A DNA stretch of 39,039 nucleotides, taken from positions 1 through 39,039 of IMG/VR virus record IMGVR_UViG_3300014962_000016. One strand, 5' to 3'. The position numbers were made by a program, and so were the translations under genes. The notes under the pieces were generated by a model that was not told where the DNA came from, ran no database searches, and was given only the letters and a program-made list of their open reading frames with translations. This document shows, piece after piece, positions 40-38,882 of the stretch (the first letter of the stretch is position 1; each line of letters begins with the position of its first letter). The DNA is from a virus.

Positions 40-72
40 ACGTGTAAAGATTCGGCCCGATTCTTTACACGT
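40..72. repeat. Perfect 11-bp inverted repeat (operator-like)
   Basis: The arms at 40-50 (ACGTGTAAAGA) and 62-72 are perfectly complementary, with an 11-base spacer. The right arm belongs to the CGATTCTTTACACG repeat that recurs at 98 and 38777. The dyad has no following T-run, so a protein-binding site is more likely than a terminator. The binding protein is unknown. Confidence 0.55.
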
Positions 73-97
73 TCCGAGGACACGCAAAGTTTTGCCC

Positions 98-149
98 CGA
101 TTCTTTACACGTTCTGACGACATGCCAAGTCTTTTACTATCACGTTAGT
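98..149 (+). repeat. 52-bp direct repeat, copy 1, with possible promoter
   Basis: This stretch matches 38777-38828 at 51 of 52 positions. A partial third copy lies 40 bp upstream, where 58-74 matches its first 17 bases. A weak promoter-like pair, TTCTGA (112-117) and TACTAT (135-140) with 17-base spacing, sits inside and would serve the small gene at 166. Each full copy is followed within about 60 bases by a tiny gene, so the repeat is probably a portable promoter or operator cassette. The promoter reading is inference. Confidence 0.6.
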
Positions 150-165
150 TCCACAAGGGAGCCAC

Positions 166-4066: not shown

Positions 4067-5077
4067 TCAGACGGCTTTCAGTTCTGACACTGTACCTAGC
4101 ACTGGCATGTCAGGGAACATAGGCTTGCCAGCCAGCATCTCGTTTCGCTGCACCCGCTCCAGCTCCAGGCCCAAGTAATGCTCGGTGATGCTGCCCTTGG
4201 AGTGGCCCAACATGGCCTGCACCCTGCGGAGAGCCCCGTCGTAGCCCTCAGACCGGAGCCTGTCGAACAGGCAGCGAGCCCCTGACCTACGCAGCACATG
4301 GCCTCCGACCCCCTTCTCTGTCAGGCCTATGGCCTTCAGCGGCCTGCCAGCAGCCCGGTAGGGATGGCTCATGGCCTTCGTCGGGTTCAGTGGGGCAGGC
4401 TCCCCTGAGGGAGCCAGACGATTGGTCAGCGGGTTGTGCCGCATGGGCAGCGGTCCCTTGGCAGGGACCAGATACCAGTCCCCATCCAATTCGCCTGCCT
4501 GCCTGCGGTACTCATTCAGCCACCGGACCATCTCGGTCTTCAACTCCGTGACCATCGGCAGGGTGTCAGCCTCCTTGGTCTTGTGCCTGTAGATGCTCAC
4601 CGTGTTCGCATCGAAGTCCAAGTCCTTGATCTTCAAGGTCTGGATCTCTGAGGCACGGCAGAAGGTGAACAGGCCCAGGGCTACCACTGCCCTGTCCCTG
4701 GGGTCTGTGGCTGCCTCCAGCACACGAGTGAAGTCTTCGATGCCGATGCGTGGCATCTCCACTCGTGGTGGCTTCAGCGGCCTCCAGCCCTCGGTCGGGT
4801 CGTAGTCCCGCAGCATCCAGTTCTGCCTGCGGCAGTAGGCAAAGAACAGCCTGTAGTTCACCAGCTTCAGGTTGTGTGTCTTCGCTCCCCACTGGTGGGA
4901 GGCGAAGACCTTGTCGATGTGTTCAGGCCTGACGTTGGCAACGTAGATGTTGCCTATCACTGCCAATGCACCGCGAAGTGCAGTTTCATGGGTCCGTACC
5001 GTGTTCCGTTCCAGACCCTTGGCCCGAAGGTGCTGTAGGTATTCGTCTACGGCATCGGAAAAAGGCTTGTGTTTCAT
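4067..5077 (-). CDS. int: Tyrosine site-specific integrase
   Basis: The 336-residue protein is a complete tyrosine recombinase. An N-terminal SAM-like core-binding domain (residues 5-90) precedes the catalytic domain, in which the full set is visible: Arg141 (FCRASE), a beta-hairpin Lys at 166 or 168, His260 and Arg263 (HVLRR), His292 (LGHS) and nucleophile Tyr301 (HYLG). It should integrate the phage at a host tRNA gene, since a tRNA-3'-end-like sequence lies just upstream at 5166-5197. No obvious arm-binding domain is seen at the N-terminus. It is transcribed from the operator-bearing promoter at 5114-5142, divergently from the HTH gene at 5371. Confidence 0.93.
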   Translation of the reverse strand: MKHKPFSDAVDEYLQHLRAKGLERNTVRTHETALRGALAVIGNIYVANVRPEHIDKVFASHQWGAKTHNLKLVNYRLFFAYCRRQNWMLRDYDPTEGWRPLKPPRVEMPRIGIEDFTRVLEAATDPRDRAVVALGLFTFCRASEIQTLKIKDLDFDANTVSIYRHKTKEADTLPMVTELKTEMVRWLNEYRRQAGELDGDWYLVPAKGPLPMRHNPLTNRLAPSGEPAPLNPTKAMSHPYRAAGRPLKAIGLTEKGVGGHVLRRSGARCLFDRLRSEGYDGALRRVQAMLGHSKGSITEHYLGLELERVQRNEMLAGKPMFPDMPVLGTVSELKAV

Positions 5078-5113: not shown

Positions 5114-5142
5114 TTCTTACATGACAGCGGTCATGTGTGCAA
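5114..5142 (-). promoter_or_regulatory. Integrase promoter with operator in its spacer
   Basis: On the minus strand a -35 box TTGCAC (5142-5137) and a -10 box TAAGAA (5119-5114) are separated by exactly 17 bases. The spacer is almost entirely the dyad described at 5119-5136, so a bound protein would block polymerase. A start near 5107 would leave a leader of about 30 bases before the integrase ATG. Confidence 0.55.
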
Positions 5143-5149
5143 ACATGTC
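5119..5149. promoter_or_regulatory. Operator-like dyad plus extra half-site
   Basis: ACATGAC (5119-5125) and GTCATGT (5130-5136) form a perfect 7-bp inverted repeat with a 4-base spacer. A third half-site, ACATGTC, lies at 5143-5149. The motif ACATGACAG recurs in leaders near 13350 and 16570. The HTH protein encoded at 5371 is the nearest candidate ligand; that link is inference. Confidence 0.55.
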
Positions 5150-5165
5150 AGAACAACTAGCACTG

Positions 5166-5197
5166 CCCGAAGGGTTCAAGTCCCCCCTCGGACACTT
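5166..5197 (+). other. Candidate attP core resembling a tRNA 3' end
   Basis: The bases at 5170-5194 read as the last part of a tRNA: T-stem GGG, T-loop TTCAAGT, CCC, then acceptor strand CTCGGAC and discriminator A. The partner 5' acceptor strand and the rest of the tRNA are absent. Tyrosine integrases commonly use tRNA 3' ends, and this sits about 90 bp from the integrase start. The acceptor strand implies a host tRNA beginning GTCCGAG, possibly a leucine tRNA. Confidence 0.6.
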
Positions 5198-5313
5198 GCA
5201 GTCGTTTTACAGCTCTGACGTGGGAAAACGCTCCGAAAATCCTCGTACACCTGTTCGTTTTTCGGGAACCGAAGTTACCCGTGGGTAGTAAAACAATCTT
5301 AACCCCCCGGTTT

Positions 5314-5342
5314 TGGACATGCCTCCTGTCACTAACTAACAT
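5314..5342 (+). promoter_or_regulatory. Rightward promoter for the HTH gene
   Basis: TGGACA (5314-5319, five of six matches to the -35 consensus) is followed after 17 bases by TAACAT (5337-5342). Transcription would begin near 5349, about 22 bases before the ATG of the HTH gene. It is divergent from the integrase promoter. Confidence 0.6.
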
Positions 5343-5370
5343 GGTTAATGACCCAGGTTGGAGGCACCTG

Positions 5371-5829
5371 ATGGCACCACCGAAGTACACCCCTGACAAG
5401 ACCACGTTCCAGCGATGGCTGGCAGAGGACCCACCACCCACGCACCAGCAGATGGCAGACCGAGTATTCGAGCAAACAGGACACCGGGTGTCCCGTGCAG
5501 CCATCACCTTGGCCCTCATGAACTACGGCCTGACGAAGGCCAGGCCTCGCTACAAGGAGTACCTGCCCTGGCGAGTGAGGACTGATCACATCAAGGCCTA
5601 CCCTGCGCGAATGCTGCGGCTCCTGGGCCGCAGGGACGCAGGCGGTGAGCTCACCGAGAAAGAAGCAGACTTGCTCAATTCTTGGTTAGAAAACCTTGCG
5701 ACAGAAGAACTCATCGTCGCCTACGACGGCGACGATGAGACAGGCTTTCACTACGTTGATGCACGTTTCAAGGATCATGATGATCCTGCCCTGCCGATTA
5801 GGAAGAAGCAGATTCACCTGAGTAGATGA
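5371..5829 (+). CDS. HTH DNA-binding protein, candidate immunity repressor or lysogeny switch
   Basis: The 152-residue protein starts at ATG behind GGAGG with 7-base spacing; longer in-frame starts reach back to 5281 but lie over the promoter. Residues 20-50 (HQQMADRVFEQTGHRVSRAAI) read as a helix-turn-helix. The C-terminal half has a conserved-looking block (YPARMLRLLGRRDAG, LNSWLENLATEELIVAYD, ending PIRKKQIHLSR) that I recall from uncharacterised actinophage proteins. Its position between a divergent integrase and the early operon, with its own promoter and terminator, is the usual place of a repressor. No second repressor-like gene is seen. A role as Cro or early activator cannot be excluded. 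Confidence 0.65.
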   Translation: MAPPKYTPDKTTFQRWLAEDPPPTHQQMADRVFEQTGHRVSRAAITLALMNYGLTKARPRYKEYLPWRVRTDHIKAYPARMLRLLGRRDAGGELTEKEADLLNSWLENLATEELIVAYDGDDETGFHYVDARFKDHDDPALPIRKKQIHLSR

Positions 5830-7575: not shown

Positions 7576-8358
7576 ATGAGGCGACTAGACCGTGCAGTCA
7601 ACCAACTGGATCGGGGCGGGGCAGTCATCCCTGTCCCGTTCCGATCCTGGGCTGACTACCAAATCAGCATCCGAAGGGGTGAGGTGTCGATGATTGCTGG
7701 CCCACCCGGTGCAGGCAAGTCCACCCTCGCCCTGTCCGTTGCCATGCTGTCCGGTGTCCCCACGCTGTACGCCAGCATGGACACACACGAGGCCACGATG
7801 GCGCTGCGTGCCACCGCCATGGTCACAGGCCTGCCGCAGTTGGAGGTGGAGAACAGGATCAGGCAGGACTCCTCGTGGGCTGCCAACATCTTGGCATCCA
7901 AGGCCAGCCACATCACATGGATGTTCGACTCCTCCCCCTCCCTGCAAGACCTGGCTGACGAGATCGCCCTGTACCGGGAGGTACAAGGGGACAACATGCA
8001 ACTGCTCGTGGTGGACAACATGATCGATGTCACCCACGAGTCAGGCGATGAGTTCTCCTCGCTGCGCTCACTGTCCAGGGAGCTCAAGTGGTGGAGCAGG
8101 GAAACAGGCTGTGCGACGTTGGCCTTGCATCACACATCGGAGTCCTACACAGGCAATCCTTGCCCTCCCCGCGCAGCACTGCACGGCAAGATCGCACAGA
8201 TTCCCTCATTGATCCTGACGTTGGCTTCGCCAACGGACGGACTGATGTCCATTGCCAGCGTGAAGAACAGGTACGGGCCTGCCGATCCGTCAGGCCAGAC
8301 CGCCATGTGGATGGACTACAACCCCTCCACCATGCAGATCAAGGACATCAACCTGTGA
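7576..8358 (+). CDS. RecA/DnaB-type replicative helicase ATPase
   Basis: The 260-residue protein has a clear Walker A (GPPGAGKS, residues 42-49) and Walker B (LLVVDN, Asp147) and an HHTSES stretch near residue 190 that matches the arginine/histidine motif region of DnaB-type helicases. Its length covers only the C-terminal RecA-like domain; a DnaB N-terminal domain is missing. It is likely the fork helicase or a helicase loader. It lies between the recombination genes and the primase genes. RadA/Sms-like ATPases are the main alternative. Confidence 0.8.
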   Translation: MRRLDRAVNQLDRGGAVIPVPFRSWADYQISIRRGEVSMIAGPPGAGKSTLALSVAMLSGVPTLYASMDTHEATMALRATAMVTGLPQLEVENRIRQDSSWAANILASKASHITWMFDSSPSLQDLADEIALYREVQGDNMQLLVVDNMIDVTHESGDEFSSLRSLSRELKWWSRETGCATLALHHTSESYTGNPCPPRAALHGKIAQIPSLILTLASPTDGLMSIASVKNRYGPADPSGQTAMWMDYNPSTMQIKDINL

Positions 8359-8474
8359 AGGAGTTCAAGGCTGACTGTCAGCGAGGCCAGTGCAAGAGCC
8401 TGGTCAAGATGGTGACGTTCGATAACGAGGAGAACACCGTCTGCCTGGATTGCGGGACGGTACACAGTGGCTGA
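8355..8474 (+). CDS. 39-residue zinc-ribbon microprotein
   Basis: This short ORF starts at GTG in a GTGA overlap with the helicase and overlaps the resolvase by 8 bases. It contains Cys8-x4-Cys13 and Cys30-x2-Cys33, the two knuckles of a minimal zinc ribbon. The overlap on both sides and AAGGA upstream support a real gene. It may bind nucleic acid or a polymerase subunit; the partner is unknown. Confidence 0.6.
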   Translation: MKEFKADCQRGQCKSLVKMVTFDNEENTVCLDCGTVHSG

Positions 8475-8862
8475 CATCACTGCTCGGAACAAGGCGAACA
8501 AGCGCAAGGGCGCTGACTTTGAGATCGACATTGTTCAGTACATGCGGGAACGCTTCCTGCATACGGAGCGCCTGACCAAGGCTGGCAAGGATGACGAAGG
8601 TGACGCTGTCATCAGGGTGAGAGACCTCGCCGTGGTGCTGGAGTGTAAGAACGAGAAGGCCATCGACCTGTCCGGTTACATGAACGAGGCCACGTTGGAG
8701 GCCCGTAACTGGGAAGCCAAGCGCATCCATGAGCCCTCCCCCGCTGCCCTCGTGATCGGGGCAGCCATCGTCAAGCGACGCAACCAGTCCATCCACAAGT
8801 CCTATGTCGTCATGGAGGCTGATGACTTTGCCGCACTCCTCTTACACCTACAGACCCGGTGA
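8467..8862 (+). CDS. Holliday-junction resolvase-like PD-(D/E)XK nuclease
   Basis: The 131-residue protein starts at GTG. It has the layout of Hjc-like phage resolvases: an N-terminal basic segment with Glu19 (KGADFEIDI), Asp46 (DEGDAVI) and the ExK motif Glu59-Cys-Lys61 (VLECKNEKAIDL), followed by a helical tail. Such enzymes cut branched DNA made during replication and recombination before packaging. It sits directly upstream of the primase genes with overlapping ends. Confidence 0.82.
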   Translation: MADITARNKANKRKGADFEIDIVQYMRERFLHTERLTKAGKDDEGDAVIRVRDLAVVLECKNEKAIDLSGYMNEATLEARNWEAKRIHEPSPAALVIGAAIVKRRNQSIHKSYVVMEADDFAALLLHLQTR

Positions 8863-12665: not shown

Positions 12666-12826
12666 AGTGGGCTGACCACCAGTGAGTCAGTACCCGTAGC
12701 GTGCTGGCAGACACAGCCGGTGCAGCGTGCATGTTCCTGTGCTGCCAGGTGCAGGAAGTGCAGCCCTCCCCCAGCACGCCAGGAACGGTTCCACTGTGCC
12801 CCTTTGAGGCACGGCTGACAGATCAT
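12662..12826 (-). CDS. Small cysteine-rich protein (54 aa)
   Basis: The ORF starts at ATG in an ATGA overlap with whiB behind GGGAGGTG. It carries CQPC at the N-terminus and CTGCVCQH in the second half, so four to five cysteines and a histidine are placed to bind zinc. Similar short proteins ending in CxCQH are frequent in actinophage accessory operons. Co-translation with WhiB suggests a shared regulatory setting. Confidence 0.6.
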   Translation of the reverse strand: MICQPCLKGAQWNRSWRAGGGLHFLHLAAQEHARCTGCVCQHATGTDSLVVSPL

Positions 12827-13110
12827 GCACACCTCCCAGGTATCCACTCCAGATGGTGCGTGCGCTCCAGGCTGATGCCTCGCCTGCGTCGCTCGCTCTC
12901 CCGCACTCTCGGCAGCAGGCCACCCCAGATGCCCCACTCCTCGTGGTGAATGGCGTACTCCCGGCAGGCGAACATGATCGGGCACGAGTAGCACATGCTG
13001 ATAGCAACACGCATATCCCTCGTGACCGTGCCGTTGAGGGGGAAGTCAAAGAACAGGTCCCCGTGGACCTGGGTGCAAGGCTCTGATCCCGTGTAATCAG
13101 GCCGCTGCAT
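12823..13110 (-). CDS. whiB: WhiB-family iron-sulfur transcription factor
   Basis: The 95-residue protein has the diagnostic WhiB pattern: Cys12, then Cys40-x2-Cys43-x5-Cys49 (ISMCYSCPIMFACREYA), followed by the GIWGG turn (residues 60-64) and a basic C-terminal segment (RESERRRRG). WhiB proteins bind a 4Fe-4S cluster through these four cysteines and act with the primary sigma factor; they occur only in Actinobacteria and their phages. Phage WhiB proteins can repress host whiB genes, as shown for mycobacteriophage TM4. This is the strongest evidence for the host phylum. It lies in the leftward operon with coupled neighbours. Confidence 0.92.
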   Translation of the reverse strand: MQRPDYTGSEPCTQVHGDLFFDFPLNGTVTRDMRVAISMCYSCPIMFACREYAIHHEEWGIWGGLLPRVRESERRRRGISLERTHHLEWIPGRCA

Positions 13111-32426: not shown

Positions 32427-32513
32427 GGGGGTGAATGGCAAGCGGGAAGCGTGAAACGTCCAGGGGACGTTAACAGTCGCTCCTGAACCTGGGTTCGATT
32501 CCCAGCACCTCCA
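32427..32513 (+). tRNA. Class II tRNA-like gene, atypical anticodon loop
   Basis: The ends pair as a 7-bp acceptor stem with one G-U (GGGGGTG with CACCTCC), followed by discriminator A. A T-arm CTGGG-TTCGATT-CCCAG and a 3-bp variable arm (CAG/CTG) are clear. The anticodon stem AACGT/ACGTT closes a 7-base loop CCAGGGG, which lacks U33 and gives a nominal AGG. The loop can collapse further (CC with GG). The D-stem is weak, two pairs only. The 87-base length and long variable arm fit class II. A decoding role is doubtful; a processing site is possible. Confidence 0.6.
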
Positions 32514-32525
32514 CCTGTTCCACAA

Positions 32526-32593
32526 ATCCCGTCCTCTGGGAGGGAACCCGTCTCCAAAACGGGTTCAGCAAGGTTCGATTCCTTGACGGGGTG
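32526..32593 (+). tRNA. tRNA-Trp (CCA) with shortened D-arm
   Basis: The acceptor ATCCCGT pairs with ACGGGGT, leaving G73, and A1-U72 plus G73 match tryptophan identity. The anticodon arm CCCGT-CTCCAAA-ACGGG has U33 and CCA anticodon, with two additional pairs. The T-arm is CAAGG-TTCGATT-CCTTG. The region between acceptor and anticodon stem is only 14 bases instead of about 19, giving a 4-bp D-stem with a 3-base loop. No encoded CCA follows the discriminator. It lies between virion genes; the D-arm truncation may limit function. Confidence 0.75.
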
Positions 32594-32714
32594 CTCCACA
32601 CCCAGACCGACCAGCCCTGGGGTGCGAATCAAAGACTGGTAGTCACAGCCATGCCTTACTCCCCTGTTTGGCATGTGGGTGGCGACTCAACGGATGAGAG
32701 AAGGGTGCGAGCCA

Positions 32715-38749: not shown

Positions 38750-38776
38750 GAATAACGGACATGCAAAGGATCGGCG

Positions 38777-38828
38777 CGATTCTTTACACGTTCTGACGAC
38801 ATGCCAAGTCTTTTACTGTCACGTTAGT
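38777..38828 (+). repeat. 52-bp direct repeat, copy 2
   Basis: It matches 98-149 at 51 of 52 positions. In the circular map the two copies are 360 bp apart and flank the small zinc gene at 38883. The possible -10 box differs by one base here (TACTGT instead of TACTAT). A shorter upstream piece, GGACATGCAAAG, also matches sequence near 78. Confidence 0.6.
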
Positions 38829-38882
38829 GACAGGGCGTGTCGGCCCGGCCTGACAGTCGCACCACGCTGAGAGGATGAGGGC

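Follow-up and report, generated by a model that had tools for sequence, protein, structure and literature searches.

Identification of a tRNA 3′ end in the virus genome

The window analysed here, the whole 39,039-nucleotide stretch of the aquatic virus record IMGVR_UViG_3300014962_000016, carries next to an integrase gene a short block that resembles the end of a tRNA. Does this block mark the site at which the virus integrates and, if so, into which gene of which host? The initial annotation had described the region 5166–5197 as the T-arm, acceptor strand and discriminator of a tRNA, and predicted an attachment site (attB) in a host tRNA gene.

A tRNA 3′-end block is indeed present beside the integrase, as had been read from the sequence. 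Its exact match to host genes is narrower than the proposed interval (5166–5197, with the match placed at 5170–5194) and comprises the 24 nt GGGTTCAAGTCCCCCCTCGGACAC at positions 5172–5195 of the plus strand (Table 1). This sequence can be parsed as GGG (bases three to five of the T-stem 5′ strand), the T-loop TTCAAGT, CCCCC, CTCGGAC, A73 and C74. The acceptor 3′ strand and the discriminator are as described, but the T-arm is incomplete: AAGGG stands opposite CCCCC, so that three of the five T-stem pairs form. Most relatives likewise have bases other than GG in the two positions to the left of GGG. ARAGORN and Rfam, run on the window, call no tRNA at 5172–5195, and the block is thus a tRNA fragment. 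It occurs once in the window, and 100 dinucleotide shuffles produced no match to it even with up to three mismatches allowed.

Table 1. Position, strand and supporting evidence of features in the window
Feature	Position	Strand	Evidence and remarks
Tyrosine integrase, 336 aa	4067–5077	−	PF00589 (1.2e-14), phrog_1 (3.6e-35); transcribed away from the core
Candidate integrase or excisionase arm sites TTACATGA, GTCATGTG, AACATGTC	5114–5160	+	Suggested by sequence and alignment A2
Putative attP core	5172–5195	+	Matches 24 nt at the 3′ terminus of actinobacterial tRNA-Leu(GAG) without a mismatch; starts in the T-stem 5′ strand and stops at C74
T-loop heptamer TTCAAGT; putative strand-exchange (overlap) region	5175–5181	+	Lies between the T-stem halves; suggested by the L197/L198 swap and by Ms6 (PMC1762012)
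Block TCTGACGTGGGAAAACGCTCC, P′ side; possible arm site or operator	5214–5234	+	Largely conserved in near relatives (alignment A2)
Imperfect palindrome AGTTACCC-GT-GGGTAGTA; candidate repressor operator	5273–5290	+	Alignment A2; AGTTACCCnnnGGGTAACTT in relatives
Repressor-like gene, start codon unsettled	5281–5829	+	phrog_3929 transcriptional repressor (1.2e-18); would adjoin the rebuilt tRNA after integration
WhiB-like regulator	12823–13110	−	PF02467 (3.8e-11); actinobacterial and actinophage hallmark

The matching host gene

A scan of public bacterial genomes for the exact 24-mer returned at least 119 stretches or loci, with 121 copies among the matches listed. Of these 121 copies, ARAGORN assigns 116 to complete genes for tRNA-Leu(GAG), with whose 3′ ends the phage block is exactly identical. 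Two of the remaining five lie in tRNA genes cut off by a contig edge or a run of Ns (L084, L101), and three lie outside any tRNA (L062, L070, L142). Two of the matches listed have record titles that are not actinobacterial, an ‘uncultured bacterium’ and an ‘Acidobacteria’ MAG; the genomes of both belong to the same taxonomic order as a MAG of Ca. Nanopelagicales (L159, genome G060). All other titles are actinobacterial. The expectation that actinobacterial tRNAs would match the block at their 3′ ends is borne out by these data, and the target can be named as tRNA-Leu(GAG). The further prediction that the host acceptor starts with GTCCGAG does not hold as a rule: GTCCGGG makes up the acceptor 5′ strand in 97 of the 116 tRNAs listed, GTCCGAG in 16 and GTCTGGG in three. 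It need not be GTCCGAG, because a G·U pair is tolerated.

Linkage of the core to an integrase clade

The core lies 94 nt upstream of the start codon of a complete integrase gene, and the encoded protein is a site-specific recombinase with intact catalytic residues (R141, K166, H260, R263, H292 and Y301, invariant in 18 relatives; alignment A1). Virus contigs hold the 22-mer used as a query at 49 loci; a tyrosine integrase is found no more than 362 nt away in 38 of them, and 48 of the 49 contain no complete tRNA. All copies in virus contigs continue with AC, two bases that lie outside the query.

We also approached the association from the protein side, gathering loci by integrase similarity alone (alignment A1). 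This yielded 68 loci, 65 of them with enough upstream DNA. The core was present with zero to three mismatches in 44 of the 65 testable virus loci, and its orientation was identical in all 44; measured from the start of the match, the distance was 86–121 nt in 43 loci and 414 nt in one. Given that A1 had been built from core-positive loci, 44/65 is no population estimate, and the informative part is the clean split in the integrase tree, where a single branch (SH-aLRT 100, quick method) parts 43 core-positive from 21 core-negative rows. The core trait occupies one clade and occurs in 0 of 21 members of the sister clade (L207, L208, L210–L213, L217, L222–L226, L228–L231, L234–L236, L238 and L240). 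Around the core-negative integrases, a search for T-arm-like sequence gave only scattered matches, none of them convincing, and other tRNA targets for the sister clade were rejected for want of such a match. Annotated phages, searched with the integrase or with 3 kb of DNA, contained no close relative.

The presence of a 3′ end alone, with a broken T-stem, might also mean that a phage tRNA gene, or a stretch acquired by transduction long ago, has decayed here and that there is no active attP. We regard this as very unlikely. Dozens of phages have almost the same T-stem base as the left edge of the block, amid unrelated flanks and beside the integrase start; the core remains tRNA-compatible as the flanks diverge; and a remnant would not track the integrase clade.

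Natural variation of the core

Five attP regions of the window type share an invariant 24-nt block and differ in their flanks (alignment A2), and repeated TTACATA/TTACTTACC motifs occur in relatives between the core and the integrase. The 88-kb contig IMGVR_UViG_3300005532_000007 (L010, L021) has the same core and flanks at both ends, as if a circle had been opened at attP. The most telling comparison is that of L197 with L198 (IMGVR 3300010354_000009 and 3300010370_003359), which have no differences in 1,301 flanking bases (200 + 90 + 1,011) and differ in two of the 24 core bases, both in the T-loop (TTCGATT and TTCAAGT). Similar tRNA-compatible core variants are seen in further phage pairs. 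Both L197/L198 alleles are found in Nanopelagicales tRNAs; the phage alleles GATTC, AATTC and AAATC also occur in Nanopelagicales tRNA genes, which ARAGORN identifies as tRNA-Leu(GAG) for the loci read.

The L197/L198 swap is consistent with a T-loop position of strand exchange or capture. It is conceivable, at a little short of an even chance, that all aquatic actinophage integrases of this clade are committed to tRNA-Leu(GAG) and that only the T-loop and acceptor letters of the core are swapped with host variation, in which case the core allele would be a record of the last host lineage.

Model of integration

When the 5′ part of the host tRNA gene was joined in silico to the window core and the DNA downstream of it, ARAGORN recognised tRNA-Leu(gag) for six of six hosts; it found no tRNA in attP or on the in-silico attR side. 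Since the join yields a complete tRNA-Leu(GAG), the host would keep an intact gene at attL after integration: the cut would be made good by the phage, which brings the 3′ portion of the tRNA, running from the T-stem as far as C74. The proposal that the attachment core beside the integrase is a copy of an actinobacterial tRNA 3′ end is supported by the identity match, the integrase linkage, the conservation across the clade and the rebuilding in silico. With the natural core-allele swaps added, we consider it highly likely that 5172–5195 is the attP core of a temperate actinophage that integrates in tRNA-Leu(GAG) by means of the 4067–5077 integrase, with the tRNA rebuilt at attL. From this framework we infer the exchange point, the arm sites, the regulation and actual lysogeny; that the phage is able to form lysogens is very probable.

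According to the attP model, the tyrosine integrase would recombine the core with the identical 3′ end of the host tRNA-Leu(GAG) gene. Strand exchange would most likely take place in the T-loop, with the T-stem halves acting as inverted arms. At attL, the host 5′ part and the phage core would together form the restored tRNA, with the repressor side of the phage lying next to it; at attR, the displaced host 3′ fragment would be left as an orphan core beside the integrase. The predicted attL junction runs from tRNA-Leu(GAG) into phage sequence starting TTGCAGTCGTTTTACAG; the predicted attR junction runs from the phage left arm, ending in CACTGCCCGAA, through the core into the chromosome.

Integration into a tRNA gene can also proceed in another manner. 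The K4/L mycobacteriophages resemble our phage in having a tyrosine integrase, an attB in a host tRNA gene and phage-encoded tRNAs, but they do not rebuild the tRNA and need a phage tRNA of the same isotype (PMC10865867). Such tRNA-dependent lysogeny, in which the core is too short to rebuild the tRNA and the phage supplies a same-isotype replacement, is a known mechanism in actinophages, and our phage does appear to encode tRNAs, for Pro and Trp. However, the shared core is not about 10 bp but 24 nt long and extends to C74, it rebuilds tRNA-Leu(GAG) in silico, and the window contains no tRNA-Leu. On these grounds we rejected this mechanism, to which we attach very little probability. Selection for a tRNA-like RNA element, such as a 3′-end or regulatory mimic, is extremely improbable and was likewise rejected: the T-loop and acceptor strand are recognisable, but the T-stem 5′ strand has not been kept (AAGGG, and mostly no GG before GGG in relatives) and is left unpaired, the acceptor strand has no partner, Rfam and ARAGORN report no match, and the conserved trait is linear identity with the host gene.

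Search for lysogens

Prophages joined at the matching tRNA were the remaining expectation of the initial annotation, and none with this integrase was encountered in any genome searched. We compared the integrase alignment with a general set of genome contigs and, in addition, with 166 Nanopelagicales, 398 Microbacteriaceae and 396 phylum-wide genomes and found no lysogen with an integrase of this clade, using a search that works on known virus records as a positive control. A different element apparently does occupy the gene. In the Nanopelagicales genome G035 (loci L273 and L274), contig C63 holds tRNA-Leu(GAG) and, 53 nt downstream of the tRNA, the gene of a different tyrosine integrase; repressor-like and primase/helicase genes come next. 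An orphan, attR-like core sits on C79, a separate contig that may carry the other end of the element. Nanopelagicales genomes with two copies mostly have two complete tRNA-Leu(GAG) calls, with one cut at a contig end, and an orphan copy is present only in G035. Among the first 80 genome loci, every integrase near the tRNA lies on its 3′ side.

The likely host

The block had been expected to give a direct handle on the host. It does narrow the host to Actinomycetota with a matching tRNA, but it does not single out one host, as the 24-mer is carried by Streptomyces, Mycobacterium, Micromonospora, Nocardioides, Microbacteriaceae and Nanopelagicales. The exact 24-mer is present in 105 of 166 Nanopelagicales genomes (63%), 36 of 199 Microbacteriaceae (18%) and 31 of 396 genomes sampled across the phylum (8%). 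These differences between the three groups are not due to chance; they gauge the prevalence of the target, not infection. Matches to tRNAs alone give a broad taxonomic assignment only (Mizuno et al. 2013, PMC3861242). In that study, too, hosts of metagenomic phages were assigned from an integrase and an exact tRNA fragment; its actinobacterial case was a tRNA-Val match of 43 bp that pointed specifically to Ca. Actinomarina, and our 24-nt Leu core falls far short of that specificity.

The WhiB gene and the kinship to Streptomyces Beephvirinae described below are independent pointers to Actinomycetota. The GC content of the phage is 58%, and sampled matching Nanopelagicales loci range from about 50 to 74% GC. 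Streamlined low-GC Nanopelagicales (39.5% GC; G131, G137) carry CCCCCTTCGGACAC, which is not an exact match. We put the case for a mid-GC aquatic actinobacterium, plausibly a member of the Nanopelagicales, at roughly even, and Nanopelagicales of about 56–60% GC are the best-supported guess.

Comparison with known phages

The closest parallel for the core is mycobacteriophage Ms6 (PMC1762012), another actinophage with a tyrosine integrase. The 26-nt Ms6 core, AGGGGTTCGAATCCCCTTAGCTCCAC, covers the same tRNA segment as 5172–5195: both begin in the T-stem 5′ strand and end with A73 C74. In Ms6, the choice between tRNA-Ala genes depends on base changes in the 7-bp T-loop (PMC1762012), and the L197/L198 swap suggests that the T-loop has a similar role here. 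The likeness is one of cores, and there are differences: Ms6 uses tRNA-Ala, whereas our phage has a 24-nt core matching tRNA-Leu(GAG), and its integrase belongs to a clade for which all known members come from virus contigs. The attachment core is a well-supported case of an ordinary, known type, a tRNA docking site; the clade-wide specificity and the natural core-allele swaps are its features that merit further attention.

Several uses follow from these findings. They name tRNA-Leu(GAG) as the target gene of an uncultured phage and tie this phage to Actinomycetota, and the integrase clade provides a testable rule, namely that virus contigs with such an integrase should target tRNA-Leu(GAG). 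It may be possible to read the host allele from the letters of the core. An integration vector for poorly tractable aquatic actinobacteria could also be developed from the integrase and attP.

The phage is also related to the Beephvirinae, represented by the Streptomyces phages Percastrophe, FlowerPower and Manuel. The terminase is 48–51% identical, a phrog_11667 protein is about 36% identical, and the order of portal, tail, tRNA and capsid genes is the same; the assignment as Beephvirinae-like rests on the homologous terminase and on this gene order, with a tRNA block before the capsid gene. The regions of kinship are window 18317–39039 and 633–2528. ARAGORN predicts tRNA-Pro and tRNA-Trp at 32427–32594, and Rfam at its gathering score reports neither. 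Beephvirinae have arrays of ~20 tRNAs at exactly this place, which is flanked by the final tail gene and by the gene that precedes the capsid gene, and the two tRNAs are probably a reduced array of that type. Percastrophe and FlowerPower differ from our phage in having no annotated or detected integrase and no core, while the window has integrase, repressor and attP; a repressor is likewise neither annotated nor detected in these two phages.

The window also encodes a C-5 cytosine DNA methylase domain (PF00145; 13544–14215, minus strand), and the relative L009 encodes one too (7822–8835). A near-identical stretch, TTCTTTACACGTTCTGACGACATGCCAAGTCTTTTACT-TCACGTTAGT, lies near both contig ends (window 60–150 and 38766–38830) and is a possible promoter or operator repeat.
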